From contig PPXM03000007.1 of the NCBI GenBank assembly GCA_003707065.3, positions 372,001 through 436,000 on the forward strand: a stretch of DNA of 64,000 nucleotides, read 5' to 3'. The notes under the pieces were generated by a model. The model was not told the origin of the DNA. It worked only from the letters and a program-made list of their open reading frames with translations, and made no database searches. Both the position numbers and the translations under genes were made by a program. This stretch comes from Trigonopsis variabilis (taxonomy: Eukaryota > Ascomycota > Trigonopsidomycetes > Trigonopsidales > Trigonopsidaceae). Shown piece after piece: positions 14,347 through 58,293 of this stretch. The stretch's first letter is position 1. Every line of letters starts with the position of its first letter.

Positions 14347-14472
14347 ATCACAGCTCGGTGCAAGAGTTGGTTCTGAAATCAATGGTCTTGCCCTGGCTGG
14401 TAATGGACGATTGTTTACCTGGAAAAATTTCCGTTGCGGATGGTTACCACCGGACAACGTCACTGGGCTGAG

Positions 14473-14499
14473 CGTGGGCGTGGGCGTGGGCGTGGGCGT
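14473..14499. repeat. Hexamer tandem repeat (gtgggc)n
   Basis: About 4.5 copies of gtgggc lie in the KAP104-BUD14 spacer. Confidence 0.85.
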
Positions 14500-14582
14500 C
14501 CTAAGCTGGTTACGTGTATGTACAGGGTGCAGGGCTGTATGGAGCTTGCTGCTGCTGTTTGCTGGCATTTCCACGTCTACTC

Positions 14583-14620
14583 GTCCTTGCGTCTTGCGTC
14601 TTGCGTCTTGCGTCCTTGAC
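14583..14620. repeat. Heptamer tandem repeat (gtcttgc)n
   Basis: About five copies of gtcttgc occur, the end copies diverged. Confidence 0.8.
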
Positions 14621-14665
14621 GTCCCTTTGTGTCTCGTCTCTTTGTTCCTTACTGAGCTCCCGTGG

Positions 14666-14740
14666 TAACGCACAGCTGAGCAACCTAACGCACAGCGAGC
14701 AACCTAACGCACAGCGAGCAACCTGACGCAGCTGAGCAAC
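14666..14740. repeat. 18-20 bp tandem repeat, four copies
   Basis: Four imperfect copies of a unit close to taacgcacagcgagcaacc; the first and last contain gctgagc in place of gcgagc. Confidence 0.8.
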
Positions 14741-14760
14741 CCGATAGAGGCGATCAATAC

Positions 14761-14792
14761 GAGGGCAGAGGGCGAGGGCGAGGGCGAGGGCG
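14761..14792. repeat. Hexamer tandem repeat (gagggc)n
   Basis: Five copies of gagggc, followed by two copies of gatatgcac. Confidence 0.85.
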
Positions 14793-14890
14793 ATATGCAC
14801 GATATGCACGATCATAGACATTACGAGAGCAGTGGACCTACGTCTGTACGATGCCACGCACGCCTCTACTTGTACAGTATTCTGTTAACC

Positions 14891-17314: not shown

Positions 17315-17370
17315 ATTAACCGACAATTCACTCAAAGCCTATTCCTTCAAGGTCATCTCCAGCACTCAGA

Positions 17371-17418
17371 GACAAACAAACAAGGACAAACAAGGGCAAA
17401 CAAGGACAAACAAAAACT
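17371..17418. repeat. Simple repeat (caaacaagga)n
   Basis: Imperfect copies of acaaacaagg lie in the presumed 5' region of the BUD14 gene. Confidence 0.7.
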
Positions 17419-17510
17419 ATCACCACGCGCGATTAGCAAGGGGTGCAGGCAGGGGAATTTTTGTAACACCGCTACGACCTTGGCCGTGCTATCACTGCAG
17501 GCGACAGATG

Positions 17511-17610
17511 ACATAAATGTGGCATAAATGTGGCATAATGTGGCATAATGTGGCATAATGTGGCATAATGTGGCATAATGTGGCATAATGTGGCATAATA
17601 TGGCATAGAT
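17511..17610. repeat. 10-bp minisatellite, unit tggcataatg
   Basis: Two 11-bp variants (tggcataaatg) are followed by about eight 10-bp copies, the last two diverged. A 10-bp period shifts reading frame with each copy, so it does not act as coding sequence despite short open frames across it. Confidence 0.9.
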
Positions 17611-17877
17611 GATATTTCTTGTTCGTCGAGCGTGTCGGTGCGAGACAGGCCATTGGGGTATGTTTGTGGGACTACTGATTGTGACGAGCAGACGTCCACG
17701 CCGATTCGCGCATCACCTGCACTGCCAGATGCTCTTTTTGTCTGAAGAGGCAATAGACTTGTTCCTCGATATGCTGGGCGCTACTACAATGTACCTTCCC
17801 CTCCCGTAGTGTCACCGACTGTGCTGACAGATGAACTAATCGGCCGTTACTCGATACCGTTGTCTAACGTGTTGCGT

Positions 17878-17975
17878 ATGGCACAGTAGACACAGACGCA
17901 TAGACACAGTAGAAGCATAGACGCAGTAGAAGCATAGACGCAGTAGACACAGACGCAGTAGGCGCAGTAATACGA
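17878..17975. repeat. Diffuse repeat of agacgcagtagaagcat-type units
   Basis: Interleaved copies of cacagtagacacagacgcat and gcatagacgcagtaga form a degenerate array. Confidence 0.7.
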
Positions 17976-18019
17976 GTATTGCAAGTGACAGCTCATTTGA
18001 CTGACGTTGCCTGGACATG

Positions 18020-18155
18020 CAACGTTGCCTTGCGGTTGCCCTGTACGTGCCTGCGGTTGCCCTGTACGTGCCTGGCGGTTGCGCCTGGTTGCGCCTGGGG
18101 GCGCCTGGTTGCCCTGGGTTGCGCCTGGTTGCCTGGTTGCCTGGACTTGCTGCTC
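18020..18155. repeat. Degenerate ggttgcgcct / ggttgccctgtacgtgcctg array
   Basis: Two close copies of a 20-bp unit (ggttgccctgtacgtgcctg, with one extra base) are followed by about six copies of a 9-10 bp unit. A short actagcgta triplication follows at about 18174-18197. Confidence 0.7.
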
Positions 18156-18380
18156 TGCGACCCAGAACGACAACTAGCGTAACTAGCGTACTAGCGTAGA
18201 CACAACAGTCAAGACTCTGTTGGATATACATCGTCCTGGCTGGCGCCCAGCGTTCTTCACCCGTCCTGCTCGCAGCCGTCCTGCTCGCAGCCGAGTCTGA
18301 GCGCTGGCGCCTGACTCACCAGGACGTTGCCATGGCTCGAGCAAGCGTTACTCTGCAGCTCATCGCCCATCGCACCGACA

Positions 18381-20066
18381 ATGACCGCAGGATCGACCAG
18401 GATGGATGGCGACTCGTCCCCTTCGTCGTCGCCGTCGTCGTCTGTGTTTTCTTCTGCCCAGGCGCCGTCCGCGCTGCTGGACAGCGCCGTGTTTCGCGAC
18501 CCCGCCCACGAACCCAGCGAGCCTGCTGTTCCGACCGACCTCATGACCATCGACTCGAACCCAGACCGGTCTATTTCGGCGATCCTGACCTCGGCCGAGT
18601 CGCCGTCGTCAGAACGAGGTCCTCTTTTCACCCAGGCCGGCCCTGCCACTTACTCTCCCCAGTCTCGCTCCCGCTCGTTTGTTTCTCCTTCAGGATCGTA
18701 CTCGCCCCACTCCAACCCTCGTCTGCACGTTGTCATTCCCTCAGCCATCAGCTCCGACCCGCTTGCGAGATCCAACCCCTTCAATATCGCTAATAACTCC
18801 TTTTCTGCTCGGTCGTCTCTGCCAGACCGCCCCTCTGGCGCCCGCCCGATTCCTTCTCGGCGATCCAGCCGGGGCGGGCGGCCAAGGTCGATCTCGTCGG
18901 TGCCGGTGGACGCATCGTCGTACGACGGGCTCCCATCGAGCCCTGCGTCGCGGTTCCTGGGCATGTTTGCTGCGGCCACGGCGCCGGCGGGAAAGGCAGA
19001 CGACGAAGGCATGGAGATTGGCGACTACGTGCTGGGCAGGACGGTCGGGTACGGCGCCAGCTCCCAGATCAGAGAGGCGCGCACGATTGCAAACGGGCAC
19101 GAGGTCTGCGTGGCGGTCAAGATCCTGCGGAGGCGAACGAGCGACGACCCAACCGAGTCGGACGACCGCCTGGCCGACTACGAGCGCGAGGTGGCCATCT
19201 GGAAAAGCCTCGAGAACCGATACATCCTGCCCCTGCTCGACGTCCACGACCGCCCAGGCATGACCTTCTGCTTCATGCCGCTGGTCCGGTCCAGCCTCTT
19301 TGCCCTCGTGCGCTCGAGTGCTCGCCGCGGCCTCCGACCGCGCCTGGGCTATCGCTACTGCCGCCAGCTGGCCGAGGCCCTGAGCTATCTCCACAACATT
19401 GCCGAAATCGCCCACTGCGACGTCAAGCTGGAGAACTGCCTGGTCGACGACGCGACCGAGCACCTGTTCCTCACCGACTTTGGCCTGTCTGACTTTGTGA
19501 GCGAGAGCACGAAAACGCCCCACGTTTCCATCTCCGACAGCGGCTCCAGCACCCCTCGCGAGCCTCGAGAAGGCGGCCTAGGGCCCATGACCCCGCTTGA
19601 AGCGCAGCGCACCGGCAGCAGCACGTCCCTCTCCGGCGAGCGAGGCGTCTTCATGGCAGGCTCGCTGCCCTACGCGGCTCCCGAGATGTTCAGCGACGAC
19701 AGCGCCGGCCAGGGGTCTGGCGAGCCGGTTCTGTTTGCCCTCGACGCCTGGGCCTACGGCGTGGTCGTCTATGCTGCCGTGATGGGTGCTCTGCCGTTCT
19801 ACCACAGCTTTGCGCCGAAACTGCGGCGCCTGATTGTCCAGGGAGCCTGGGACCAGGAGGCGCTGGTGCGCCGGCTGCGGGGCTCCGAATGGAGTGCCTA
19901 CGACGAAAAGGCCCAAGCCCGCGTGTCGAGCGCCATGCTGCAGGTCGCCCAGGGGTGTCTCAGCCAGCGGGACGCCCGGTTCACGACGCGCAAGGTCATC
20001 ACCGTCCTCGACGAGGTGGGGGCGAGGACGGGGGCGCTGGAAGATTCGGGGAATAATTACGACTAA
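18381..20066 (+). CDS. Fungal Ser/Thr protein kinase with non-canonical HCD catalytic loop
   Basis: 561 residues from the ATG at 18381; a second ATG at 18402 is possible. The first 210 residues are Ser/Pro-rich and disordered. The kinase domain begins GDYVLGRTVGYGASSQ (about residue 218), with VAVKIL for the ATP-binding lysine and an ADYEREVAIWK helix C. The catalytic loop is HCDVKLEN (about residue 345) instead of HRD. DFGLSD, GSLPYAAPEMF and DAWAYGVVVYAAVMGALPF follow. There is a Ser-rich insert between DFG and APE. All catalytic residues (Lys, Asp, Asn, DFG Asp) are present, so it should be active. The Arg-to-Cys change suggests activation not relying on the usual HRD-phosphate contact. 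I cannot assign an ortholog. Confidence 0.88.
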   Translation: MTAGSTRMDGDSSPSSSPSSSVFSSAQAPSALLDSAVFRDPAHEPSEPAVPTDLMTIDSNPDRSISAILTSAESPSSERGPLFTQAGPATYSPQSRSRSFVSPSGSYSPHSNPRLHVVIPSAISSDPLARSNPFNIANNSFSARSSLPDRPSGARPIPSRRSSRGGRPRSISSVPVDASSYDGLPSSPASRFLGMFAAATAPAGKADDEGMEIGDYVLGRTVGYGASSQIREARTIANGHEVCVAVKILRRRTSDDPTESDDRLADYEREVAIWKSLENRYILPLLDVHDRPGMTFCFMPLVRSSLFALVRSSARRGLRPRLGYRYCRQLAEALSYLHNIAEIAHCDVKLENCLVDDATEHLFLTDFGLSDFVSESTKTPHVSISDSGSSTPREPREGGLGPMTPLEAQRTGSSTSLSGERGVFMAGSLPYAAPEMFSDDSAGQGSGEPVLFALDAWAYGVVVYAAVMGALPFYHSFAPKLRRLIVQGAWDQEALVRRLRGSEWSAYDEKAQARVSSAMLQVAQGCLSQRDARFTTRKVITVLDEVGARTGALEDSGNNYD

Positions 20067-20093
20067 TGAGTTACGAGCAGGACGTGTATGGTG

Positions 20094-20175
20094 CACGTGT
20101 ATGATGGTGCACTACGTTTATGATGATCACGTGTATGATGGTGCACTACGTTTATGATGATCACGTGTAGATGAT
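20094..20175. repeat. 34-bp direct repeat, two perfect copies plus partial
   Basis: Copies at 20094-20127 and 20128-20161 look identical and start cacgtgtatgatggtgcac. A partial third copy starts at 20162. They lie in the 3' spacer between the kinase and the Mpv17 family gene. Confidence 0.9.
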
Positions 20176-20296
20176 TTCAGTCATCGCGTTTGGAGGGTTT
20201 ATGTTGTCACGACTCGCTTTGAGGAAGGCCACGATGAGATGTACACGCTAGCATAGAAAATATTGCCGATGGCGACTAGCCTCGTCGTAGCTCAGC

Positions 20297-21080
20297 TCAG
20301 TCCTCCTTAGCTTCTGCCTCTTGCTCAGCCGCCACTTCCCGCTCGATCTGGGCCGCCACCTCCTGCTCGATCTCGGCGACGATTTCCTCCTCCAGCTCCT
20401 CCTCCAGCTCCTCCTCGACCTGTCTTTTCTCAAACTCCTCCGCCAGCTCCACCATCGTCTTTGCAGACTTGCCCTCCTTGTCGTCGTCTTTGCGCAGCCG
20501 GCGCTGGCGTCCTTTGGCCAGGACGTTGTTGTACGTGCCCACCAGGAAGCCCACCAGGCTAAAGTACGGCGTCCACGCGTACTGCGGGACAAAGGCCTGC
20601 GCAAACGCCAGCGCAATGGGAGACAGGGTCCAGTTGACCCGCAGAATGGGCCAGAACGTGATCTTGAGGCTGCGCTTGACGACCTCCCACGACCGGGCGC
20701 CGGCGATGACGGCCATGGACGTAGTAAACGCGCCCACCACGAGGGGCGAGTAGATCAGCAGGTGCAAGACCAGCCTGGCGATCCCTCTGGAACGCGCGCC
20801 CTGGAGCCTCGACTTGTCGAGAAGCCTGGCGATCAGGTCAAAGGCCACGTGCGACACCGGCGCAGACACAAGAAAACCGTAGAGAGCCATCTTGTACACG
20901 CGAGACGTGAGCCACTGCGCCTGGTCACCAGACGAGATGCGCGTCGCGAGCGCCTCCTGGAGCGAACACAGAAACGCCGAGGTCAGAGCCTTGGTTCTGC
21001 GATTAGACCGTGCCTGTGCCGTCTTACCTGAGCGGATGGGCTCTCAATTGCTCGCTATAGCGCTGGCTGAGACTCGGCAT
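20297..21080 (-). CDS. Mpv17/PMP22 family membrane protein with acidic C-terminal tail
   Basis: Exons 21080-21028 and 20996-20297 with a 31-nt intron (GTAAGA, TCTAAT, CGCAG) give 250 residues. Splicing makes EQLRAHPLRTKALTSAFLCSLQEAL, the standard Mpv17 opening, from a 17-codon first exon. Four membrane spans follow, with YGFLVSAPVSHVAFDLI and the family block LRVNWTLSPIALAFAQAFVPQYAWTPYFSLVGFLVGTYNN in modified form (WP and NF motifs). Members sit in the peroxisomal or inner mitochondrial membrane and may form channels. Unusually, the last 55 residues are a Glu-rich predicted helix that the core family lacks. Which paralogue (Sym1-like or peroxisomal) is not clear. Confidence 0.9.
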
Positions 21081-21219
21081 GTGGGGAAGTGTAGCAGGTG
21101 ACAACGAGGCGAGGTTGGCGAGGGTAAGGTCGACGTGGATGACGAGGTCGACGAGACAGCAAGGTCGACGTGGATTACGAGGTCAGCGTACAATCTGCGA
21201 CCGAGTAGACAATTGCGCA

Positions 21220-21380
21220 GTGGATGACGGCGGATGACGGCGGATGACAGCTGGGTTAACGCATGTTGCTGCCTACGCTGGCTGCCTACACTGGCTGCCC
21301 ACACTGGCTGCCCACACGAGACGCTACACGGCTGCTACACGGCTGCTACACCCCCACGGCCGCTACGCCCACGCCCTACA
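21220..21380. repeat. Clustered short repeats downstream of FOL1
   Basis: Three copies of ggatgacggc, then three of ctggctgcc(t/c)acac, then three of ctacacggctg lie in the spacer between the Mpv17 family start and the FOL1 stop. Confidence 0.75.
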
Positions 21381-21409
21381 CCCACTGCTAATGACCCTAT
21401 TAACCATAT

Positions 21410-23764
21410 TTAATAAACACTCCGGTAGATAGCATCAGCCATCAATGCCACCTTCTTCATCTCATTGACGTCGTGGACTCGCACAATATCGGCGCCCTTA
21501 CTAATACTGGCAGTCACCACGGCGGCCGTGCCCCACGAGCGCTCGGCGGGCTCCGACACGCCGGTGATGGTGCCTATGAACTTCTTGCGGCTGGCGGCGA
21601 CCAGCCACGGCAAGCCCCGCAGCTTGGGGCGCGCAAGGAGCCGGTCGAGATGGCGCAGGATCTCGACGTTGTGCTGGGCGGTCTTTGCAAACCCCAGCCC
21701 CGGGTCGAGCACGATGTTCCAGCGCCGGATGCCCGCGCTGAGCGCAGCCTCGACCCGCGCCTCGAGCTCCTGGCCGACCTCCTCGACCACGTCCTTGTAC
21801 TGGCAGTGCTGGCCCATGGTCTGGGGCGTGCCCCGCATGTGCATCAGAATGACCGGCACGTCCTTCTCCTTGACCAGGCGCAGCATGTCCGCGTCCATCG
21901 CGCCGGCGCTCACGTCGTTGACCATGTCGGCGCCGGCGTCGAGCGCAGCGCGCGCCACCTGGGCGTCGAACGTGTCGATCGAGAGCGGCACGTCGAGCTC
22001 GGCGCTGCGGATCCGCTCAATCACCGGCACAACCCGCGCCATTTCCTCGTCGATCGACACCCGCGCCGACGCCGGGCGCGTGGACTGGCCGCCAATGTCG
22101 ACGATGTCGGCGCCGTGGGCAATCATCGCGCGCACGGCCGCCACCGCGTTCGACTGGTCCACCGTGCCGCCGTCCGAAAACGAGTCCGGCGTGACGTTCA
22201 CGATGCCCATGATGTGCGTCTTGCGGCCGTCGAACTTGAGACTCGCGCCCCGCCGGAGCGGCATGAGCTTGGACATGCCCGTGCTGCGCAGCCGCCGGAG
22301 ATGGCTCTCCATGGTCAGGCACGTCAGCGGGTGCAGCTTGTCGGGGGCGATGTCGGCCAGCGGGCGCAGCACAAACTCGCGCTCGACGATGCCCATGTGC
22401 GGGATGCTCAGCTCGGGCAGGTCGATCAGCTCGTTGTCGTAAAAGAGGATGTCGAGGTCGATCGACCGCGGGCCTTTGTCGACCGTCTTGACGCGGCCGA
22501 GCACCTCTGACTCGCATTTCTGGAGCAGCCGGAGCAGGTTCATGGGGCTCAGGCGCGTCTGCACCCGGGCGACGCCGTTGAGGAAGTCCGCCTGGTCGGT
22601 GACGTACATTGCCTTTGTGTCGTACAGGCACGACGTGTCGACGACGCGCACGCCGTTGGCGTCGAGCCAGCCCAGCGCGTCCGCGATGTTCCTGGCCCGG
22701 TCGCCGACGTTGCTGCCGAGGCCCACAAAGACGTCGTGCAAGTCGGGGTTGGTGAGTTTCATTTTATCGAAAAAGGCCTGGTCTCGCGACACCTCGACGC
22801 CGGCGGCCTGGGCAAACGCCAGCGCGCAGGGCTTTTCGATTCTCACGGTGGCCTTGGAGACGCCAAAGTTGGTGCAGATCAGCTTGCAGGCGGCGCTGGC
22901 AAACGCCTCGACGGTGAGGTAGTCGGTGCGCTCGGCCCACTCGGCCAGCTCTGAGGTGATGCGCCGGTAGTCGTACGGGGAGCCCGAGGCCTTGACGTCG
23001 CGGTAGAGCCACAGCGTCAGGCGGATGCGCTGTTTCTCGAGGCGCTCCCAGGGGTGGACGCCAATGACCGTGCTGAGATCCATGTCGTGCACCTGCAGCA
23101 CGTCCTCGCTCTCGATGAGGCCGTCGATCCGGCGCGTGATCTCGATCGAGGCGCTCCCGGCTCGCAGCAGCCCTTTGGACTTCTCGACCCGCACCTTGGC
23201 CCACGCGCCGGCCTGGTCGCCCAGGCACGCGCTGGCGATGCGCTCGGCCACGTCCTGGAGGCTCTTGAACTGTTCTTTTTCCATCAGGCCGACGATCCGC
23301 TCGCTCACGTCGCCGTAGTGGATCGTGTGCGCGATGAAGTCCGTCTGGGCCACCAGCGAGATGTTGGTCTTGAGCCACACCGAGATCGTCAGCGGCTGGG
23401 GAGCGTCCTGTTTCCAGGCGTCGAGGCCGGCGCGGGCCTTGACGACCAGGTCCTTGACAAACACAATGTCGGTGTCGCGGTCATAGTTCCAGTTGTGGCG
23501 CGAGTAGGAGCGCGTATGCATCAGCGAGCCCGTCGGAGACACCAGGTATCCGGGACGGCCTCCACTGGGCGTCAGCGGCCGGCGAGGACTGCCAAAGCTG
23601 GATTCGGTGGGCGTTTCCGGCGACAGCGGGCGGGCAAAGGCGCGGGGCCGCTTGGCTGGCGGGCACTCGGGGCAGTCGAAGCTCAGCGGCGATTGGGCTT
23701 TGCGGTGATGGGCGAGCGCGGGCGGAGGAGGAGGCACCGAGCTCGAGTCGAGGTCCAAAGGCAT
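21410..23764 (-). CDS. FOL1: Trifunctional folate enzyme (DHNA aldolase, HPPK, DHPS)
   Basis: 784 residues from the ATG at 23764. An 80-residue Pro/Ser-rich leader precedes two tandem DHNA aldolase repeats (DIVFVKDLVVKARAGLDAW; VHDMDLSTVIGVHPWERLEKQ). HPPK follows (VFVGLGSNVGDRARNI, and GPRSIDLDILFYD for metal and ATP binding). The C-terminus is dihydropteroate synthase (IMGIVNVTPDSFSDGG, DIVDIGGQSTRP, LSIDTFDA, ILMHMRGTPQ, LDPGLGFAKT, VAASRKKFIG, VRVHDV). It makes dihydropteroate from dihydroneopterin and p-aminobenzoate; DHPS is the sulfonamide target. All three activities look intact. A short upstream exon coding a targeting signal cannot be excluded. Confidence 0.95.
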   Translation of the reverse strand: MPLDLDSSSVPPPPPALAHHRKAQSPLSFDCPECPPAKRPRAFARPLSPETPTESSFGSPRRPLTPSGGRPGYLVSPTGSLMHTRSYSRHNWNYDRDTDIVFVKDLVVKARAGLDAWKQDAPQPLTISVWLKTNISLVAQTDFIAHTIHYGDVSERIVGLMEKEQFKSLQDVAERIASACLGDQAGAWAKVRVEKSKGLLRAGSASIEITRRIDGLIESEDVLQVHDMDLSTVIGVHPWERLEKQRIRLTLWLYRDVKASGSPYDYRRITSELAEWAERTDYLTVEAFASAACKLICTNFGVSKATVRIEKPCALAFAQAAGVEVSRDQAFFDKMKLTNPDLHDVFVGLGSNVGDRARNIADALGWLDANGVRVVDTSCLYDTKAMYVTDQADFLNGVARVQTRLSPMNLLRLLQKCESEVLGRVKTVDKGPRSIDLDILFYDNELIDLPELSIPHMGIVEREFVLRPLADIAPDKLHPLTCLTMESHLRRLRSTGMSKLMPLRRGASLKFDGRKTHIMGIVNVTPDSFSDGGTVDQSNAVAAVRAMIAHGADIVDIGGQSTRPASARVSIDEEMARVVPVIERIRSAELDVPLSIDTFDAQVARAALDAGADMVNDVSAGAMDADMLRLVKEKDVPVILMHMRGTPQTMGQHCQYKDVVEEVGQELEARVEAALSAGIRRWNIVLDPGLGFAKTAQHNVEILRHLDRLLARPKLRGLPWLVAASRKKFIGTITGVSEPAERSWGTAAVVTASISKGADIVRVHDVNEMKKVALMADAIYRSVY

Positions 23765-24505
23765 GAATGGCTTCAAGCCCAAACAGATGCGTCGCTTAGC
23801 GGTGTAGACGAGGAGGATAGAAGGAGGACGGGCCCTGGACCCTCGCTGATAACCGGATGACAGTAGACGACTAATGATGCGCTGTCCGCCTCGCGGTAGT
23901 CTAATAAGGCCAAGGGGTCCAGGCTGATCTGGTTGGGCCAGGGTGGTCTAGGCTGTTACCCGGCCGCCTTCAGGGCCTAGAAACGGTCCCCCAGGCGGGC
24001 GTACGTAAGGGCGCCCGGGAGCGACACCGTTTTGGGGGACTCTGGTGATGGCCTGCGCGCACTGGCGAGATACGATTGTCTTGGTGTGGAGCTGGATCTG
24101 AGTCGACTGAGTTACGGCACGCTGTGCACATCTTATCGCTGGCACAAGCTCGCCAGCGACAAGCTCCCAGGGTGACTGTGCAGGCTAGTGCCGGCTGACG
24201 GCGCAGAGGTTAGTGCCAGGACAGCTAAGCGGTTTGGCTCTGGTCGTTACGCTGCCATCGCAGCTCGTACGGGCGGAATGTACGACGTGCGATGGCCAGT
24301 TTTGGCACCGTTCATTCCTCGGACTTGCTCGATTGGGATGGAGTGGAGTGGAATTCATCGTATATGGGGATCTGGCTACCAGAGCAGACGCTATACGCCG
24401 AGCAGACGCTATACGCAGAGAGACGCTGTCTTGTGCAGGGAATCGTGTCACTACGAGGGCTTGCCATAATGGTTCATCTGATGATTCAATCAGGTCACCG
24501 ATCCA
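23765..24505. other. Intergenic between FOL1 and oxidoreductase gene, no gene seen
   Basis: It contains a small hairpin (cgctggc...gccagcg, about 24139-24160) and two copies of gagcagacgctatacgc at about 24392-24420. Small ORFs have no recognisable features. Confidence 0.55.
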
Positions 24506-24509
24506 CGGT

Positions 24510-24557
24510 GAATCACCTCGCCACTGAATACCTCGCCACTGAATCACCTCGTCACTC
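24510..24557. repeat. 16-bp tandem repeat reaching into the oxidoreductase stop codon
   Basis: Three copies of a unit close to gaatcacctcgccact occur. The last copy (about 24541-24556) includes the reverse-strand stop codon at 24552-24554. Confidence 0.8.
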
Positions 24558-25684
24558 GAGGGCCTCGACAAAGTCGGGATAGACAAAGTCGTTTTGGCGG
24601 CGGACGGTGTCCATCACCTGCGCGACCTCGACGCTGTCCTTCCACGTCCACGACGGGTCCTGGTCAAGATTTTTGGCCAGGTCTCTGGCGACCGCATCGG
24701 CTTCCCAGAACAGGCCTTTGCCAGGGACGTCAAAGTCGACCTTGCGCGGCGGCTGGCCGTCGAGGTGGACTGTGTATGCGGTGGGACGGGAGCACGGCCC
24801 CTGGACGGTGATCTGTCCTTTGTCGCCGTGGATGACGACCGACGCCTGGTCCCACGACTCAAAGGTCATGTGGCAGCTGGCGATGGCGATGGCCTGGTGG
24901 GGCGGGGGGTAGGTGAGGACCACGGTCGACGAGGCATCGACCCCAGTCTCAGTCTTGATCATGCTCGAGACGACGTGGGGGCGCTGGCCCTGGTAGAGGA
25001 GTAAGTGGCACCATGTGATGGCGTAGACGCCAATGTCGAGCAGGGATCCGCCTGCCAGGTCGGGGTTGTAGCCTCTGTGCTTTGGGTCGGGGGGAAAGAC
25101 CTCTCCATACGAGGCGCAGACTTTGTGGATGGATCCAAGGATGCCCTGGGCCAGCTTCTCGCGGAGACTGAGCATCAACGGGAAGAAGCGAATCCACATG
25201 GCCTCCATGAGGAATACCTGGTTGCCTTGCGCCAGGGCAATCAGAGCCTTGGACTGCTCTGCGTTCACTGCAAGCGGTTTCTCGCACAAGACGTGCTTGC
25301 CTGCCTCTAGGGCGCTCTTGGCTACCTTGTAGTGCAAGTTATGGGGCACCTGCCGTTAGCAAGCAAGCCAGGCATCGTACCGCTATATAAACCACATCCA
25401 CTGCAGCGTCGTCAAACAGATCCTGGTAGTTTGCGTAGATCGACACTCCCGCGGCCTCGCTGTGCCTGCCGGCAGTCGCAAAGCAGTCCTCGACGAACTT
25501 TTGGGCTCGTTCGGCCGAGGACGAGGAAGCGACGGCCCTGACACGGTGGTCGATATCGTCGACCTGGCGAAGCTTCGGATCAGCCAGTAAATCGACCACG
25601 AACGCTTTGGCGATCTGCCGTCAGCTTCACCTTGCATTTTCATACATTTCCTGGCCCTGCTATGCCCCAATTGGTGGTTATCAT
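24552..25684 (-). CDS. Gfo/Idh/MocA oxidoreductase, dihydrodiol dehydrogenase-like
   Basis: Three exons, 25684-25646, 25614-25381 and 25349-24552, give 356 residues; both introns are 31 nt (CTGAC and CTAAC branches). Exon 1 encodes only MITTNWGIAGPGN. Joined to IAKAFVVDLLAD it forms the Rossmann dinucleotide-binding motif. [61 protein letters not shown] and the C-terminal domain (GGSLLDIGVYAITW) follow. The catalytic Lys of the EKP motif is present. The family includes trans-1,2-dihydrobenzene-1,2-diol dehydrogenase and sugar dehydrogenases using NAD(P). The substrate cannot be told from sequence. Confidence 0.92.
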
Positions 25685-26693
25685 TAGGAAGCATTAGACT
25701 CACTCGATGGAGTAACGTTACATTGGCTCATGTAACCTGGGGTCCATCAGCAGCGAGACAGAGAGATGTGCTAGAGCAGCAAGACAGGAGGAGGATTTGG
25801 ACGTGTTTGGTATGTGGGTATTTCTGGAGTAACTACCGTCATAAAGGAAAGAGATGGAGTTTTTTTCGCATTATTACGACGCGTAGACAAACGAAGACGG
25901 GCCGCTTGGTCTGCCACAAAGAAGAAATCTCTTCCTTCGTTTAGAAGGCCACACTAATTCAATAAGACGACAGACTTAGACCAGCATGCAATAGAATCAT
26001 CTATAGAAAGGATATACTGCCGGAGATTAGTCGGGAATAAGACCAGAAGCGAACCAGTTGGGACAGCGTGCGGCTGAAAATATTTTCCTCAAATGTCCTC
26101 ACCACTTGGCTTGGAACGTTTTGGTTTATAAGCTGAACCACGCGAGCGATAGAGCTGGAGTGGATCTTGCACGGGTTGCATAACAAATAGATCCACAATG
26201 TCTCCACCGGAACTACCTTGGAACCACGTATCATATGCAGACACAGTATGTTTTGATCTACGGCGGATTTTGTTATTCTCCGAGCTTCGGGCAATTATCA
26301 GATCCGACGGATCCCAGCGATCAGCCCGCAGAACACTATCACCGCTGCTCATGAAATACATCCACTTCCACCTTGGCCGCTCTCGGATCGGCATTTTAAT
26401 CCACCGATTGTCCGCTCGGGAGAAGCTCACATGACCAAAGTCCACTAGTCGGAGAACGGCGACACCAGCTTAGACCCAGAGCGCCATGCCATCCACAGAT
26501 CCAGCTCGGGCACTGATAAACTATCCAGCGCTGGAACGTAGAAACCGTCGCTTGTCCTTGTTATGGCGACATTGGTCGGCGAATAATGGCCGGCTGGCCC
26601 GTTACGTTATCTATCCTGACTGCCCTGTAGCGTTGATTCAATCTCTCCAACCTTGTCTCCAACCGCCTCGTGGTAAACCGCCGACAGTCCATC
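25685..26693. other. Intergenic, promoters of oxidoreductase and transporter genes
   Basis: About 1 kb with no convincing gene. A 118-codon minus-strand frame at 26089-26445 shows no family resemblance. The composition is more AT-rich than the flanking genes. Confidence 0.5.
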
Positions 26694-28319
26694 ATGAACG
26701 ACCCGCAGATCGAACAAGAAGTCGCTCAAGTGGTAGACGAGGTCACTCCTTTACTGCCTCCCACCAGCGAGGAGGCTGGGACGCCGGCGGCGAGCGACAA
26801 GACGTCGCTCGAGACCTGGGTGGTCTTGTTGTCCATGTACATTGGGGTGTTTTTGGCTGCCATGGACTCGACGGTCGTTGCTGCTCTGCTGGGGCACATT
26901 GCCTCCGAGTTCAAGGAGTTCAAGGCCGTGGCATGGATCGCGACGGGGTATTTGATCTCGACGGCCGCGTTCCAGCCCTTGTTCGGCAAGCTGACTGACA
27001 TCTTTGGCCGCAAGTCGGGGCTGCTCTCGTGTAACATTCTGTTTGGCGTTGGATGCTTGATCTGCGCGCTTTCGTCGTCGCTGAGGACGCTGGTCATTGC
27101 CCGAGTCATCCAGGGTATCGGCGGCGGAGGCTTGACTGCGATTTCGACCATCACCGTCAGCGACATCATTCCCGTCAGGAAGCGCGGTGTGTACCAGGGA
27201 ATCGGCAATCTGTTCTTTGGCGTCGGCGCAGCGCTGGGAGGAGTGCTGGGCGGCTTTGTCAGCGACCATTTTGGCTGGAGATGGGTGTTCCATATCCAGA
27301 TCCCGGTGATTGCGCTTTCCATCTTCATGATCCAGTGGAAGCTGCACGTGCCAGTGCCCGAGAGCCAGGTCAAGCTGACCCTCAAGCAGAAGCTGGCCCG
27401 CGTCGACTTTGGCGGCTCGTTTGCGCTGTCGACCAGCTTGATTCTGCTGCTTAGCGCCCTGAGTCTCGGCGGCTCCTATATTCCATGGTCTTCCTGGACC
27501 ATCGTCTCCCTCTTCGTCGGCTTTGCAGTCACCTTTGCCCTGTTTTTCTACATCGAGGCAAAGGTGGCCAAGGAGCCGGTCCTGCCGCTTCACTTGTTCA
27601 AAGAGCCCACCATCCTCGGCTGTGCCCTGGCCAACTGGTTCGCTACAATGTCTGTGTACGCGTCCTTGTTCTACTTTCCCATCTACCTCGAAGCCATCCT
27701 GGCCTACACGCCGACCCAGGCGGGTTCGAGCTTGGTGTTTAACTTTGTGGGAGCCTCGTCGGGCTCTTTCTTTGCCGGCATCTACATGAGAACGACGGGC
27801 AAGTACAAGACGCTCCTCCGCCTGAGCTCGCTCCAGTACCTGGTCGGCGTCGGCATCCTCTGCACCGTGGGCTACTCGTTTCCCATCTGGCAGCAGTTCC
27901 TGGCCATGGTCCTGAGCGGGTTTGGCTACGCCAACGTGCTCACCATCACCCTCATTGCGCTGATCGCCGCGGTGCCGTACGAGTTCCAGGCCATCACCAC
28001 GTCGATCCAGTACGCCTTCCGAGGAACCGGCTCGACCATGGGCGTGGCTCTTGTGTCGTCCTTGTTCCAGAACGTCCTCGACTCCAAGCTCCGACTGCTG
28101 GTGCAAGGACCAGACGCCGCCGAGATCATCAAGCTGGTCGAGGGATCGGTCGAAGCGATTGCCCAGGTCCCCGACGAGTACAAGCCTGCCGTGCTCCAGA
28201 GCTACCTGATTGCCTCGCGCTTCGCCTTTTATCTTATAACGGCTCTCGCGGGTGGCATCATTGGCGGCTGTTTCATGGTCCAGGAGCACGTCCTGCAAAC
28301 AAACATCTCTCGTGAATAA
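26694..28319 (+). CDS. MFS transporter, Vba/Fnx1-like vacuolar amino-acid family
   Basis: 541 residues from the ATG at 26694, intronless. The N-terminus carries a dileucine-like VTPLLPPTSEE, plausible for vacuolar sorting. MFS motifs are in order: FLAAMDSTVVAALLGHIASEF, GKLTDIFGRKSGLL (motif A), RVIQGIGGGG (motif B) and GVGAALGGVLGGFVSDHFGWRWVF (antiporter motif C). Fourteen spans are likely. Yeast Vba1/2 and S. pombe Fnx1 take basic amino acids into the vacuole, and the MDSTVVAALLGHI block fits them best. Drug/H+ antiport is the alternative. Its 3' end faces another MFS gene. Confidence 0.85.
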   Translation: MNDPQIEQEVAQVVDEVTPLLPPTSEEAGTPAASDKTSLETWVVLLSMYIGVFLAAMDSTVVAALLGHIASEFKEFKAVAWIATGYLISTAAFQPLFGKLTDIFGRKSGLLSCNILFGVGCLICALSSSLRTLVIARVIQGIGGGGLTAISTITVSDIIPVRKRGVYQGIGNLFFGVGAALGGVLGGFVSDHFGWRWVFHIQIPVIALSIFMIQWKLHVPVPESQVKLTLKQKLARVDFGGSFALSTSLILLLSALSLGGSYIPWSSWTIVSLFVGFAVTFALFFYIEAKVAKEPVLPLHLFKEPTILGCALANWFATMSVYASLFYFPIYLEAILAYTPTQAGSSLVFNFVGASSGSFFAGIYMRTTGKYKTLLRLSSLQYLVGVGILCTVGYSFPIWQQFLAMVLSGFGYANVLTITLIALIAAVPYEFQAITTSIQYAFRGTGSTMGVALVSSLFQNVLDSKLRLLVQGPDAAEIIKLVEGSVEAIAQVPDEYKPAVLQSYLIASRFAFYLITALAGGIIGGCFMVQEHVLQTNISRE

Positions 28320-28411
28320 TAGACGTGCCAGGACTGGCGTCAGAAAAGTGTAGACTCTTGATTGATACAGTATATAGTGGGGTGGTGTGTTGAGACTTGT
28401 AGTTCATCTAG

Positions 28412-28490
28412 CGTTCCAGACATGGCAGACAGGTTCCAGACGTGGCAGACAGGTTCCAGACATGGCAGACAGCGTTCAGAACTCTAGCTG
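28412..28490. repeat. 20-bp tandem repeat, three copies plus outlier
   Basis: Three copies of gttccagacatggcagacag (one with g for a) occur, with a fourth at about 28539-28560. Confidence 0.85.
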
Positions 28491-28577
28491 GGGTAAATAG
28501 CTGGGGTTAGTATGTGGGATGTGGTGTGGTTCATAGCGTTCCAGACATGGCAGACAGGTTCCAAGACTCTAGTTCAC

Positions 28578-28745
28578 AGTTCATACGCACACGTTCACGT
28601 TCACGTTCATACGTTCACATTCACACGCTTCCATGTAATCATACGTACATCAGACCTTTTCGCCTCCATGTAATCATACGACATCACACCTTTATTCCAT
28701 AATCATACGACATCAGACCTTTTTTCCATAATCACATGATCAGAC
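28578..28745. repeat. Composite repeats running into the stop codon of the DHA1 transporter gene
   Basis: A (cgttca)n stretch at about 28580-28625 is followed by about four degenerate copies of a 30-35 bp unit containing ccatgtaatcatacgacatc and agacctttt. The final copy, tgatcagacctttt, contains the reverse-strand stop codon at 28740-28742 and the last codons. Confidence 0.75.
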
Positions 28746-30437
28746 CTTTTCGCTTTCTTCCAGCTCCCGTTCCTTGCGCGCCATCTCTTTGCGCTCCTCG
28801 CGCTCGCGAAACCGCCGCCGGTAGTCGCGGCCAGAATGCAGAACCCAAAACACAGACGGCCCGTCGAGGACCACGAGAATCAAAGCAAACATGGTAAAAC
28901 ACCACCCGGTGCCCATGGCGTCGCAGATGTACTCGATCAGCGCCGTTCCCGCTGCGCCAAACAGACAGCGAATGAGGTTGTTGACGGCAATGATGGACGC
29001 GGTGCTGTGGGGATAGAGGTCGACCAGGATGACGCTGGTCGACGAGAAGATGCAGGTGCTCAGCGCCCCGGTGATGCACAGAAACACAATCGACGGCACA
29101 ATCGTCCAGCCGGGGCGGAAGGACCAGCCAAAGATGACAAGCGAGGGCGCGTAGATGGAGAGGTAGATAAAGAAGAGACTGAGGCGAGCCTCCTCGTAGG
29201 GAAAATCGGGGTCCATGCGCTTCGACGACCGGCCGTAGTTGTCGGGATACCCGTACTTTTGCGCGGTTTTGCGGAAAAAGTGGTCGAGCAGGCGCCCGTT
29301 GATCAGACTGCCGACTGCGCAGCCGGTGCCGGCCGAAATAAACACTACCCCAATCAGCAGGGGACTGAGGCTGTAGCGGGAGGCGTACTCGAGCGACGCC
29401 TGGGTCATGACGCAGTAGAAGGACGTGTACACGAGCGCGTTGGCAAACAGAATCACAAAGATCTCTGCCTGGCGCAGGGTGTAGAAGGGCGTGAGAAAGG
29501 CGGTCCAGTGGAACGTCTTGGGGGGACTGAGCGTCTGTTTGGTGGCGAGATCGACCTGGTCGAGCGGCCTGGGGAGGCCTGAGCTGTCCTTGCCGAGCTT
29601 CATAAAGTCAATCAGGCTCCAGCTGTACCAGTCGGTGGGCGCAATGGCGCCGTTGCCGACAATGCTCCGCGACGTCTCGCGCACGTACAGGATGTGCATG
29701 GCCAGCAGGACGACGGAGAAGGCTGACAGAAAGTAAAAGCACGCGTGGTAGCCCGACGCCGTGATGCTGAGCGCGCCTCCCAGCAGGGGGCCGATGGCAG
29801 TGGCAATCATGACGCCGGCCTGGAAAATGCCCATGTACTTGCCTCGCTCGGCCGACGCTGACACGTCCGCGATGGTGCCCGCGCCAATCGCGATGGAGCT
29901 GGCCGCTCCGGTGCTCTGCAGCATGCGGAAGACCAGCAGGAGCGGATACGAGTTCTGCACGCTCAAGACGATGTTGGCAGCCAGGAAGACGCCGATGGTG
30001 ATGACATACAGCGGCCGTCGCCCGTAGCAGTCGCCCAGAGGGCCCCAGAAACTGGGGCTGACGGCCTGCATGATCATGTAGAGCGTGATTGTGAGGTTGA
30101 TGTTCTCCTGCGACGTGCTGAGGTCGCGCGCGACCTCTGAAATGACCGGGAAATAGATGCTCGTGCCCAGCGGACTGGCGTACCCGGTCGCCGTCGCAGC
30201 AAACACGACAAAGATCTTTCTGCCCGGCGTGAGGGCCGAATACGGAGCCAGAGCCGACGTGGACACGTTCGTCGCCAGCTGCAGATCGTCAATCGCCGGC
30301 CTTTCCTCTTCAATCGACTCTCCCGTCACCACGGTGTAGATGTCATTGTCGAGCTCGTCCTCGGGACTGGATCCCTGGCCGCTCCACTGCACAGGGTCCT
30401 CTGCTCTGTCTGAGTCGGAGGATTTGGCTTGGTGCAT
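28740..30437 (-). CDS. MFS multidrug transporter, DHA1 (12-span) family
   Basis: 565 residues, intronless, ATG at 30437. After an acidic 70-residue N-terminus come YASPLGTSIYFPVISEVARDL (first span), GPLGDCYGRRPLYV (motif A), FRMLQSTGAASSIAIGAGTIAD and GVMIATAIGPLLGGAL (antiporter motif C). A charged central loop and the second six-span half (ISAGTGCAVGSLINGRLLD) follow. It resembles the Qdr/Aqr1/Dtr1 branch, plasma-membrane H+ antiporters for drugs, weak acids or polyamines. The C-terminus is a charged coiled stretch ending EESEKV, whose last codons belong to a downstream tandem repeat. Substrate unknown. Confidence 0.87.
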   Translation of the reverse strand: MHQAKSSDSDRAEDPVQWSGQGSSPEDELDNDIYTVVTGESIEEERPAIDDLQLATNVSTSALAPYSALTPGRKIFVVFAATATGYASPLGTSIYFPVISEVARDLSTSQENINLTITLYMIMQAVSPSFWGPLGDCYGRRPLYVITIGVFLAANIVLSVQNSYPLLLVFRMLQSTGAASSIAIGAGTIADVSASAERGKYMGIFQAGVMIATAIGPLLGGALSITASGYHACFYFLSAFSVVLLAMHILYVRETSRSIVGNGAIAPTDWYSWSLIDFMKLGKDSSGLPRPLDQVDLATKQTLSPPKTFHWTAFLTPFYTLRQAEIFVILFANALVYTSFYCVMTQASLEYASRYSLSPLLIGVVFISAGTGCAVGSLINGRLLDHFFRKTAQKYGYPDNYGRSSKRMDPDFPYEEARLSLFFIYLSIYAPSLVIFGWSFRPGWTIVPSIVFLCITGALSTCIFSSTSVILVDLYPHSTASIIAVNNLIRCLFGAAGTALIEYICDAMGTGWCFTMFALILVVLDGPSVFWVLHSGRDYRRRFREREERKEMARKERELEESEKV

Positions 30438-30625
30438 TCTGTGCGAAGAGGAACAGCGCTCAGCAGCGCATGCGCGTTTGAATATATTTAATCATCATCC
30501 CCAGGCTTTGCCGATATCGGCAAGGGCGTTGCCATGGTGATTATCCGCCTACCGTCCAAAGCTTGGCCTGCTCGCCAGCCCACCGGGCCATAATACAGGA
30601 GAGGTCATTGGCTGGCACAAGGGGT

Positions 30626-30664
30626 TTGGTTCTAGTACTGCTTGGTCTAGTACTACTTGGTCTG
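30626..30664. repeat. Short tandem repeat (tggtctagtactac)n
   Basis: Nearly three copies of tggt(t/c)tagtactgct lie between the DHA1 promoter and the end of the methyltransferase gene. The rest of the 330-bp spacer shows nothing else. Confidence 0.7.
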
Positions 30665-30769
30665 TCGCTGTGCGGGAGCCATCAGCATCACCAAGACATC
30701 AATTCGTGGCGTATTTGGAACACTTTGGGGGTTTCTTAGTTGAACCGGTACCGGGATGGCGAGCGTAAC

Positions 30770-31799
30770 CTAGGTGCTAAGACCGAACAGACGGCGTATT
30801 TCCGAGATGTGTCTGGGGCCCGTTTGGCAGCATCCGCCTATAATTAGACGGTTAAATAGAGGCATCGCCGGCTCGAGCGCCGATTTCAGACTCGAGGCCC
30901 ACCGGCTGGGGGTGAGGGCGTCACCGTCCGACCACGTCTGGCTCGTCCCATCGTACACCCGTCCTCCGTCTGGATACACGACGAGACCCAGGGGACGATC
31001 CAGGAAATGGCCCTTGTAGGTTTCGCAGTAGGCCGCTACAACCTGGGCGATCAGGAACGGCTTGGTACAGTTGCATCCTACGGCCCACGGCTTGACTGTG
31101 CCGCTCAAGGCAGCAGTGAAGGCGGCCCTGGGACTCGATCCGTCTGGCAGGCGAGCAACAGGATCCTGGCCATGCGCGATAAACACAAACGACAGCCAGA
31201 AAGGCTTGGGAGGATGGACTGCAAACAGGCGCTCGAGCGCGGCCAGGATGGCTTGGGCCTCGACTGCGGCCGGGATCGTCTCGAACGCGAGATAGTCGAT
31301 TGCTTGCCATGTCTGGCGGTCCGTAGCAAAAACAGACAAGCGCTCGAGGTGCCACTGCGTGAGAGCATCGCGCGCACTTTGGCTGGTGACTGTGAAAGGC
31401 GCAGGATAAGAGGCAGTGAACTCTTGAGCGCCAGCAAGAGTCGCACCGTAGGGGCCAAGTGACAGGGCCAGCTTCCTGCCGCTTGGGCTTGTCGCCTGAT
31501 AGGTTAACCTGACCAGGTCTCTCATGGCACCAGCAGCCTGACCAGGCGCAAGTCCCAGCGACTCGTACCCGCCAATTGACGCTTGATACGTAGGTGTCTC
31601 GATCACTGCAGATCCAGCTGCGATAAAAGCCTGGTGGGCCTCGGTGAGAACCTCTGGGCGATCCCGCGCACACGCTGCCGACCACAGAGGTCCAGCCACA
31701 GCATCCTTTCCGGCCAGCTGTTCGACATATGTTCCCTCAAGTCAGCGAGCCTCTTTTCAGACATACAAATCCGCCATCGAGAACCACAACGTCCGGCAT
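30770..31799 (-). CDS. Homocysteine S-methyltransferase (Mht1/Sam4-like)
   Basis: Exons 31799-31767 and 31735-30770 with a 31-nt intron (GTATGT, GCTGAC, TTGAG) give 332 residues. The 11-codon first exon MPDVVVLDGGF joins GTYVEQLAGKDAVAGPLWSA, producing the family's LDGG-GT start. VIETPTYQASIGGY, SLGPYGATL, AFETIPAAVEAQAI, VGCNCTKP and GGCCQTGPRHI follow. The Cys of VGCNC and the GGCC pair are the three zinc ligands that activate homocysteine. It transfers a methyl group from S-methylmethionine or S-adenosylmethionine to make methionine. Mht1 cannot be separated from Sam4 by eye. Confidence 0.93.
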
Positions 31800-34080: not shown

Positions 34081-35045
34081 ATGCCTTTCCGCTCATCCGA
34101 ACCGCTCTATCCTGGTCTGAACGACCTCTCGGATGCGCTGGATGCGCTTCCCCAAGCCCTCATCCGCCAGTTCACTCTCTTGCGCGAGGTCGAGGCAAAG
34201 TACTGCAACACCTATCCTCTCCTAGTGTCGTCCATCGCCCGCCTGCTGGACCTGGATCTCAAGGACCCTGGCAGGGAAGCGCTGTCGCTGGAAATCCGGC
34301 AGCTCTTGACCGAGCTGCTCCCAACGTTCGAGGAAAAGATCCATGTTGCGGGAAACGCTGCCCAGCTGGTCTCGAAGCATTTGGCTCGAATAGACGACGA
34401 CTTTGACCGAATTATGGCCAACGAGCTGCCCCAGTCGGTCCTGTTTGGCCCGGCAAACCACCCAGCGCTCATTGTCGAAGGAGCCAAACAACACGAGCCC
34501 AGCCCGGCGGCGTCACGGTCAGAGACTCGCCGCGAAGCCATAGCGGCCAAGAAGGCGGCCGCTGCCGCTGCTGCAGCCGAGCGGCGGCAGGAAGAAAGCA
34601 GGAGGAACGGGTCGCGGACGGCGGCCAGTGAAGAGCGCAGCGAGGCCGGCCAGGCGTCAAAGCGAAGGAGAGTGACTGCCAACAAGAAAGAAGGACCAGG
34701 GCGGACGGCAGACTACGAGTTCTCGGCCGGGAGCGTGCGTGTGACCGAGGAAGGGTCGCGGGTACGGACTCGGATTGAAACGGGACGGAAAAGGTACGCA
34801 GGGGTGGTGATCTTTACTTACGTTCTAGACCAACCGAAGTGGGCTCTCCATCGCAGGACGACGAGGGAGAACCAGTCTATTGCTACTGTCAACAGGTGTC
34901 TTATGGAGACATGGTGGGGTGCGACGGCCCCGACTGCAAGCGGGAGTGGTTCCATCTTCCCTGCGTCGGGCTCAGTGCTCCTCCCAAGGGCCAATGGTTT
35001 TGTGATGAATGCGCGGCCAAGTACCAAAAGAAAAAGAGGGTTTAG
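34081..35045 (+). CDS. ING family chromatin reader with C-terminal PHD finger
   Basis: Exons 34081-34793 and 34829-35045 with a 35-nt intron give 309 residues. The N-terminal ING domain (PGLNDLSDALDALPQALIRQFTLLREVEAK) is followed by a helical bundle. An Ala/Arg/Lys-rich nuclear linker (KKAAAAAAAAERR; KRRRVTANKK) comes next. The PHD finger at about residues 250-300 reads YCYCQQVSYGDMVGCDGPDC, WFHLPCVGL and WFCDECAAK. The Tyr, Gly-Asp-Met and Trp positions of the H3K4me3 cage are present. ING proteins are subunits of NuA4, NuA3 or Rpd3L. The assignment among Yng1, Yng2 and Pho23 is open. The stop is 35 bp from the stop of the opposing gene. Confidence 0.93.
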
Positions 35046-42118: not shown

Positions 42119-43247
42119 CTAATAATCAGTAAGCCATAGGTTCCCTAGATCAGCCATTGGCCGGATCGACGAGGAAATCGATGATTGACAAGTGAGATTG
42201 GCAGGCATATTGGGGTCAAACGGAGAAACAATCAAAGGATCGACAATCAAGTTTGATTCCATGGGCTCGCCCGAGTAGAAAAACTGGGGGCTCTTATTGT
42301 TACTGTTGGGCTGGAACGGATCATTCATTAACGACAATGCCTCGGTGGCCTCGAAAACGGCGGCGCTGGGCTCGATGGGAGACTCGTCGACAGACGTAGT
42401 CGAGTGGCCAGAGAGATCAAACGAGTCCAAGCTCGCCATCTCGCTGTCATTATCTAGGTTTGGCGAGTCTGACGAGCGCGGCTCCGAATGATGACCGCAA
42501 GATTCGGAGCAGTTCTCATGATGACTGTGTTGACAGGATTTATCGGAGCTTTCGTCGGAGTGACTGGGAGTTAGACCCGGCATTTACTAAGCAACGCAGA
42601 TGGGAGAAAAGGATTTTGCGGAATGAGGGATTTATGAATCGCAAACGACAAAAATAGTAGCGTGTTTTTTTAAAACTTACCTCGATCCTGGATCAGAGTA
42701 GCCAGGGACATGCATATTCCCGGAGACATGGTTCCCGGTCAGCTGTTCAATGACATGGTTGATATTGATGTGGCCCTCTCCTCCTTGAAGATTGTCGACT
42801 TTTTCTCCTCGTAAGACGCGATTGATGACCTCTTCGAGAGCCACTTGAAGGATTTCGATTCGGTTCTCTAGTAGATCAACGTATCTAAGACGTCAGCATA
42901 CCCTAAGACAAAAAACACTCACCCGCCAGGATAGGTCTTTTCCTTGGTTCTCTTGCGTTCTGTAAATGTACAGATCTTGTTATCGAGAATGCACCTGCTG
43001 CAGGGTTTTCTGCCGTCGCACTAGCGGTTAGATTGCTGCTCCGAGGGAAGGAGTAAACATACTTTGGATTTCTTGATTCTAAACCGAGTTAGACAAATCG
43101 ATAAGGTTCAAAAACATACCTGCAGCAATCGCATGCTTTGCCAACCCGCTTTCTCTGTCCAGACTCCATGTGAGACGAGTGTAAAGGAGAATGGACGGAA
43201 GGGTGGTGGGAAGCCGAATGTAAAGAAGAAGCTGCCAATGGAGCCAT
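42119..43247 (-). CDS. Zn(II)2Cys6 transcription factor, five exons
   Basis: Exons 43247-43120, 43078-43063, 43020-42923, 42884-42681 and 42563-42119 give 296 residues. Introns are 41, 42, 38 and 117 nt, each with a CTAAC or CTGAC branch. The zinc cluster has C39, C42, C49, C55, C58 and C65 in the canonical C-x2-C-x6-C-x5-C-x2-C-x6-C spacing. It is followed by TERKRTKEKTYPGGYVDLLENRIEIL, a linker and dimerising coil shared by a fungal subgroup. No fungal_trans middle domain is present. The last exon begins with a Ser/His/Cys-rich stretch (CQHSHHENCSESCGHH), then an acidic Ser/Pro tail that may activate. Target genes unknown. Very long non-coding flanks suggest complex control. Confidence 0.9.
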
Positions 43248-58013: not shown

Positions 58014-58293
58014 TCAGCTCACTGTTTTCTGTCGCGCACAAACACTGATGGACTCTTGGTAGGCTATGACCCACAGTAGCCCAGTTAATCCGCAAAGGAT
58101 CACTAATATAATACTAACTACTTGAGATATTCGTAACTAGGGTCAGTCTCACGTCTCGTCTGGCTCTTACAAACACTCCGCGACTAGATGCTTCCACCAG
58201 GAATCCCCAAATAGTCTCGATGCCTTTGAACACAGACGAGTAGTCAGTGAAAAATAGAGCGACAGCACTGATTATGAGCCAGCCAGTTGCCAT
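58014..58293 (-). CDS. Candidate small two-helix membrane protein
   Basis: Exons 58293-58171 and 58136-58014 (41 codons each, the second including the stop) with a 34-nt intron (GTAAGA, ACTGAC, CCTAG) would encode 81 residues. The intron has the same geometry as the confirmed ones. The product has a hydrophobic N-terminal segment (WLIISAVALFF) and a strong span (VVSIILVILCGLTGLLWVIAY) with a short basic-polar tail. The frame stays open only with splicing. No family was recognised. Same strand as GPI1 and directly upstream of it. Chance cannot be excluded for so short a product. Confidence 0.45.

Follow-up and report, generated by a model that had tools for sequence, protein, structure and literature searches.

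In the yeast Trigonopsis variabilis, the size of compact introns is probably set by two floors: the branch A lies no earlier than base 24-25 of the intron, and a tail of at least 6 nt separates it from the intron end. The minimum of 31 nt arises because the approximately 25 nt leading to the branch and the 6 nt following it add up. A sequence-only reading of a window of 64,000 nucleotides (contig C7, positions 372001-436000) had proposed 31 nt as the smallest intron and 6-11 nt as the distance from branch to intron end. Both proposals hold across 264 kb in a gene-finder run with flat priors, in which none of 87 introns was shorter than 31 nt, artificial introns of 20-30 nt being recoverable, and in which 75 of the 87 have a branch-to-end distance of 6-11 nt.

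Methods

The window carries fungal genes and belongs to a genome of 11.35 Mb in 15 contigs. Introns were surveyed in the window together with 200 kb of contig C2 (positions 100001-300000), so that the 264 kb sampled represent about 2.3% of the 11.35 Mb. The gene finder was self-trained, with coding statistics and splice signals learned from the sequence, and required a branch motif in every intron. In the flat-prior run, no preference was given to intron length (12-150 nt) or to branch-to-end distance (3-45 nt). In the learned-spacing run, the prior for the branch-to-end distance was taken from the flat-prior run and favours 6-15 nt. A finder that allowed introns of up to 400 nt was dropped, as false long introns fused neighbouring genes, and its 159 introns were not used. 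A compact set (n = 68) was obtained from the 87 introns of the flat-prior run by removing 12 introns longer than 70 nt and then seven with a branch-to-end distance above 12 nt. In a frame-free scan, pairs of donor-like and branch-like patterns were counted for each spacing, with an AG 6-11 nt past the branch. Introns of the sequence-only reading were matched by length, since it gave lengths and, for most introns, no coordinates.

Results

The flat-prior run placed its 87 introns in 137 genes of the window and the 200 kb of contig C2. The lengths of 54 of them fall at 31-42 nt, and the branch-to-end distance is below 6 nt in one and above 11 nt in 11. The learned-spacing run gave 106 introns, 78 of them 31-42 nt long, and all 106 have a branch-to-end distance of 6-11 nt, a figure that is partly built in because the spacing prior of this run favours 6-15 nt. 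For a yeast, introns are moderately common, as the 106 calls of the learned-spacing run were made among 139 genes, 72 of which contain at least one.

Three sets of decoy signals yielded 31, 16, and 26 calls with spread lengths, compared with 87 calls with the real signals. Because decoys still yield 16-31 calls, some of the 87 calls are false, above all long ones. The decoy runs also included a few calls of 23-28 nt, so the finder is able to call introns shorter than 31 nt. When artificial introns of 20-30 nt were placed in 43 intron-free genes, exact recovery was obtained in 27-41 of the 43, and for artificial introns of 31-80 nt in the same genes in 33-40. In 15 other loci (48,912 bases) ten introns were called, none shorter than 31 nt, with a spacing of 6-11 nt in only six of the ten. 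The length is a multiple of three in 20 of the 68 compact introns, and multiples of three are not depleted. Introns of 39 nt are absent from both runs (0/87 and 0/106), though lengths of 38 and 40 nt are common, a post hoc observation that is possibly due to chance.

The sequence-only reading had listed 24 introns in the window. Of these lengths, 22 recur in the learned-spacing run and 16 in the flat-prior run, the lower figure arising mostly because neighbouring introns were merged or a later acceptor was taken. The 23 calls of the learned-spacing run in the window comprise the 22 matches and one call of 20 nt (63483-63502), which has its branch at base 10, lies near the window end, and is absent from the flat-prior run. 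This call falls below the floor and was judged, rather than proved, to be false.

All four 31-nt introns of that list were located within positions 20297-31799, each on the minus strand and, as had been described, each with base 25 as its branch A and six bases following it. Three of them were called in both runs: one in an Mpv17/PMP22 gene (20997-21027; branch CTAAT, acceptor CAG), where frame continuity is kept, and two in a Gfo/Idh/MocA oxidoreductase gene (intron 1, 25615-25645, branch CTGAC; intron 2, 25350-25380, branch CTAAC; acceptor CAG in both). The fourth, in a homocysteine S-methyltransferase gene (31736-31766; branch CTGAC, acceptor GAG), was called in the learned-spacing run; in the flat-prior run it measures 49 nt (31718-31766), a later CAG acceptor being preferred. 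All four lie in or near the G+C-rich part of the window, at 21-32 kb; window positions 12001-24000 have a G+C content of 61-63%, as against 45% for the 200 kb taken from contig C2.

Nine further introns on the minus strand were called in both runs. Those at lower coordinates than the 31-nt group measure 36 nt (2304-2339, branch-to-end distance 7 nt), 48 nt (5069-5116, 6 nt), 37 nt (7915-7951, 8 nt), 62 nt (14183-14244, 6 nt), 34 nt (16990-17023, 6 nt), and 35 nt (17200-17234, 9 nt). Farther along the window are introns of 117 nt (42564-42680, 7 nt), the longest of the 24, 38 nt (42885-42922, 8 nt), and 35 nt (53361-53395, 8 nt). On the plus strand, both runs called introns of 35 nt (34794-34828, 8 nt) and 38 nt (48695-48732, 8 nt), as well as another of 38 nt (62983-63020), in which the TAG 7 nt past the branch is used in preference to an AG at 4 nt.

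Six minus-strand introns were called as listed in the learned-spacing run and were handled differently in the flat-prior run. The 38-nt intron at 10956-10993 (branch-to-end distance 10 nt) becomes 47 nt, and the 52-nt intron at 57750-57801 (11 nt) keeps its ends but has its branch assigned to an earlier CTGAC. The introns of 42 nt (43021-43062, 7 nt), 41 nt (43079-43119, 10 nt), 38 nt (62373-62410, 7 nt), and 37 nt (62431-62467, 6 nt) were merged with their neighbours. Between these paired short introns, the learned-spacing run leaves very small internal exons, 43063-43078 (16 nt) and 62411-62430 (20 nt); in the flat-prior run each pair forms one longer intron. The two lengths left unmatched, 34 and 33 nt, fit minus-strand stretches that the finder did not call, both with a branch-to-end distance of 6 nt by eye. 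The 34-nt candidate (58137-58170) shows an open frame on joining only, and its spliced product gave no match to any Pfam family. The 33-nt candidate (61779-61811) lies in a gene for ribosomal protein L35, the spliced protein matching PF01632 (E 8.7e-10) across the junction.

Protein homology was also compared at the junctions of the 31-nt introns. The joined exons of the oxidoreductase align without gaps to eight homologues both between N13 and I14 (intron 25615-25645) and between A91 and V92 (intron 25350-25380), with I14, Y89, P93, and H94 invariant in the nine-row alignment, and splicing raises the PF01408 score from 45.2 to 83.2 bits. In the methyltransferase, removal of 31736-31766 raises the PF02574 score from 170.6 to 183.3 bits (+12.7), and the alignment of the spliced protein to a solved enzyme runs through the junction. 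The Mpv17 intron has its basis in the frame alone, as its Pfam score (47.5 versus 47.4 bits) does not rise because the domain sits downstream of the intron. It could be argued that such stretches are coding insertions or frameshift errors rather than introns. However, protein homology resumes exactly at the junctions of the oxidoreductase, the methyltransferase, and L35, and the signals and lengths recur far above the decoys, which makes an artefact hardly credible. The listed stretches are presumably spliced out in the cell.

The predicted introns have U2-type features, namely GT...AG ends, a 5′ site able to pair with U1, and a branch motif that fits U2. Among the 68 compact introns the branch motif is CTAAC in 43, CTGAC in 11, and CTAAT in five, with others in the remainder. 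In the 75 introns of at most 70 nt, the branch profile has T at 100%, A at 100%, and C at 93%, as found with a finder that requires the motif; the branch signal is independent of the finder in that it is also visible in the frame-free scan.

As the sequence-only reading had held, no pyrimidine tract lies between the branch and the AG, and none was found upstream of the branch either (n = 68). The 252 bases between the branch motif and the last three bases consist of 37% T and 24% C, a short T-leaning stretch and no tract, because the tail is too short to hold one. The interior between the 5′ site and the branch contains 28% A, 19% C, 25% G, and 28% T, thus 47% C+T, and pyrimidine runs upstream of the branch are not enriched, with a mean longest run of 3.7 versus 3.5 ± 0.13 in shuffles. 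A branch-to-AG distance held within a few nucleotides and the lack of a 3′ pyrimidine tract mark these sequences as compact introns of the kind seen in several hemiascomycetes.

In the compact set the median branch position is 30 (range 25-56) and the median tail 7 nt (range 6-11), 6 nt being the commonest branch-to-end distance. The distance from the 5′ site to the branch is not significantly correlated with the tail length (Spearman 0.16, P 0.19, n = 68). A single call has the branch at position 24. The sequence-only reading had put forward a fixed internal ruler, by which the branch would be measured from the 5′ site. In its favour, base 25 carries the branch A in each of the four 31-nt introns, and the learned set contains four introns with that branch position, each with a tail of 6 nt. 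However, the branch position spreads from 25 to 56 while the branch-to-end distance stays at 6-11 nt, so that the ruler has to be abandoned as very improbable. The branch at base 25 in the 31-nt introns is found because the two minima coincide, without a ruler of fixed length.

The cleanest sign of a lower edge at branch position 25 is the frame-free scan. Branch positions 25-31 account for 68 donor-branch pairs in it, compared with a background of about 15 (2.1 per position), and branch positions 22, 23, and 24 for 1, 2, and 2 pairs; two decoy patterns gave flat profiles. In the absence of a steric floor, deletion pressure may shorten introns until selection for room for the three signals sets the lower edge. 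Intron length does vary, the learned-spacing run including introns of 117 nt and more. However, the signals (5′ site 6, branch motif 7, and tail 5) need just 18-20 nt, implants of this size are readily detected, and the edge at branch position 25 is sharp. Deletion without a steric floor is thus an unlikely explanation, and two floors are preferred.

The AG used as 3′ splice site is the first to lie 6 nt or more beyond the branch. In the compact set (n = 68), seven AGs occur between the branch and the AG used, all at 3-4 nt and none at 5 nt or more; six of them are out of frame with the AG used, and the seventh directly precedes a stop TAG. The learned set (n = 106) contains 11 skipped AGs, nine at 3 nt and two at 4 nt, of which seven are out of frame. 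An AG at 6 nt or more past the branch is never passed over in either set. A blind zone thus follows the branch, firm to 4 nt and likely extending to 5 nt, as no intron uses or passes over an AG at 5 nt, apart from one doubtful 118-nt call of the flat-prior run with a 5-nt tail. The compact introns end in TAG (34), CAG (22), AAG (11), or GAG (1).

The sequence-only reading had proposed that U2AF and SF1 be inspected for changes. A changed core 3′ splice-site machinery found no support: the two U2AF subunits and SF1 can all be recognised in the genome, the only change noticed being the loss of a conserved Phe from RRM1 of U2AF65. SF1 was found in the genome, U2AF35 lies on contig C2 (3.6e-91 to the fission yeast subunit), and U2AF65 lies on contig C7, where its match to human U2AF65 covers RRM1-RRM2 as well as the UHM. 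In RRM1 of U2AF65, a Leu stands in place of the RNP1 Phe that is kept in all ten homologues (eight fungal and two plant; 11-row alignment). We take this Phe to be among the RNA-binding residues of the domain. Its loss fits a species without pyrimidine tracts, ten homologues being few. The RNP2 stretch of the same domain is unlike that of the ten compared homologues.

SF3B1, Slu7, Prp18, and Cactin are present in the genome, as is RED, whose match is weak, yet above the cut-off. SDE2 was missed by PF13019 and found by PF22782. A search of the genome with PF07052 gave no match for Tls1/Hep59, a result that is no proof of absence. U2 snRNA was found, and its branch-binding stretch is ordinary and carries GTAGTA. 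Two candidate explanations were ruled out by this inventory: a missing or broken U2AF, as U2AF35 and U2AF65 were both found, and a loss of factors for branch-distant 3′ sites, as Slu7, Prp18, and Cactin were found and SDE2 too. Slu7 and Prp18 are dispensable at short branch-to-AG distances in other yeasts, according to PMC10711555; both are kept here despite such distances.

Protein searches returned distant fungal sequences as best matches (44% identity for the oxidoreductase and 40% for U2AF65), and the search with SF3B1 gave no near relative. The SF3B1 core shows 82.1% identity with Dipodascopsis uninucleata, the values being 79.5-81.6% for other members of the Lipomycetaceae and 73-76% for the rest of the named rows. 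In a tree of 24 SF3B1 rows, among which Saccharomyces, Candida, and Yarrowia are not represented, the query joins a Blastobotrys-like group (support 80/83), a position that is unsure because the query branch is long. From these protein comparisons, the organism is probably a deep-branching Saccharomycotina yeast.

Discussion

We consider it likely that the account as a whole, with compact U2-type introns, a blind zone, and no tract, is correct. The introns would be ordinary U2-type introns that have shrunk close to what this spliceosome tolerates. One floor would hold the branch A about 24-25 nt or more away from the 5′ splice site, and the other would keep it at least 6 nt ahead of the intron end; an intron of 31 nt would be one in which both minima are reached. 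Recognition would proceed via the 5′ site GTRNG, the branch CTRAY, and a nearby AG, with no use of a pyrimidine tract. About five bases after the branch would form a blind zone, in which AGs at 3-4 nt are passed over, and the first AG beyond it would serve as the 3′ site. That the spliceosome imposes these floors sterically is our inference.

Other organisms are known to have short introns or a short branch-to-AG spacing; the notable point here is that a single yeast with a full set of factors combines the two minima. Yarrowia lipolytica, a saccharomycotine as this organism probably is, resembles the present case in having the branch motif nearly joined to the 3′ site and no 3′ pyrimidine tract (PMC2483917, PMC2911113, PMC13309789). 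Its spacing is shorter still, with 2 nt from TACTAAC to AG, which equals 5 in the present count (PMC2483917), whereas its introns are long, with a median of about 200 nt and a dominant peak at 41-60 nt (PMC2483917, PMC2911113, PMC13309789). A constrained branch-to-AG distance of several origins is described for Debaryomyces hansenii, Eremothecium gossypii, Candida guilliermondii, and C. lusitaniae, and the 3 nt preferred in C. guilliermondii equal the modal 6 of the present count (PMC2483917). However, these four yeasts have few introns, and passages of PMC2483917 on them gave no mention of a floor at 31 nt.

Schizosaccharomyces pombe shares many short introns, a degenerate branch motif, U2AF and SF1, and Cactin and Sde2, but the branch lies 12 nt from the intron end in the mean or median (PMC9508853, PMC4079972), compared with a commonest distance of 6 nt here. 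In S. pombe, reporters with a 6-nt branch-to-end distance splice poorly, for which a possible steric clash has been blamed (PMC9508853). In Saccharomyces cerevisiae, AGs too close to the branch are likewise unused; its natural minimum is 10 nt in the present count, and the cryptic minimum without Prp18 is 7 (PMC10711555). Introns of about 25-36 nt are reported from microsporidia, ciliates, and Trichomonas (PMC2483917, PMC5014332). Paramecium and Bigelowiella, as described in PMC2483917, have no branch signature, in contrast to the strong branch motif here. With a detectable branch motif, the present introns do not belong to that ultra-short type. Encephalitozoon, with a mean of 35.8 nt and a conserved branch motif, is nearer in form, but is intron-poor (PMC2483917).

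Human extracts require about 50 nt between the 5′ site and the branch, and in humans splicing depends on Smu1 and RED when this distance is short (PMC6692369), RED being present here too. The extended helices of the human B complex, 17 nt of U6/5′ site and 14 nt of U2/branch, amount to 31 nt and are separated by a bridge of roughly 21 nt (PMC6692369). A bolder reading, which we offer only tentatively, is that the spliceosome of this yeast may routinely work with a minimum of about 25 nt and usually 26-31 nt between 5′ site and branch, no more than the 31 nt of the two human helices and without room for the bridge. It may also choose 3′ sites by distance alone, with a U2AF65 RRM1 that no longer binds a tract. 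If this were true, the B complex would be arranged more tightly than the known ones.

There is also a consequence for gene annotation. Many automatic annotation pipelines set larger minimum intron lengths. In genomes of this kind, an AG should be expected 6-11 nt past CTRAY, and introns of 31 nt should be accepted.

The minimum intron size is informative about the reach of the early spliceosome from 5′ site to branch. In a yeast that has U2AF, SF1, Slu7, Prp18, and RED, and in which most introns are close to 31-42 nt, both floors would be separately measurable, and structures of a compact early complex could naturally be sought in such a yeast.
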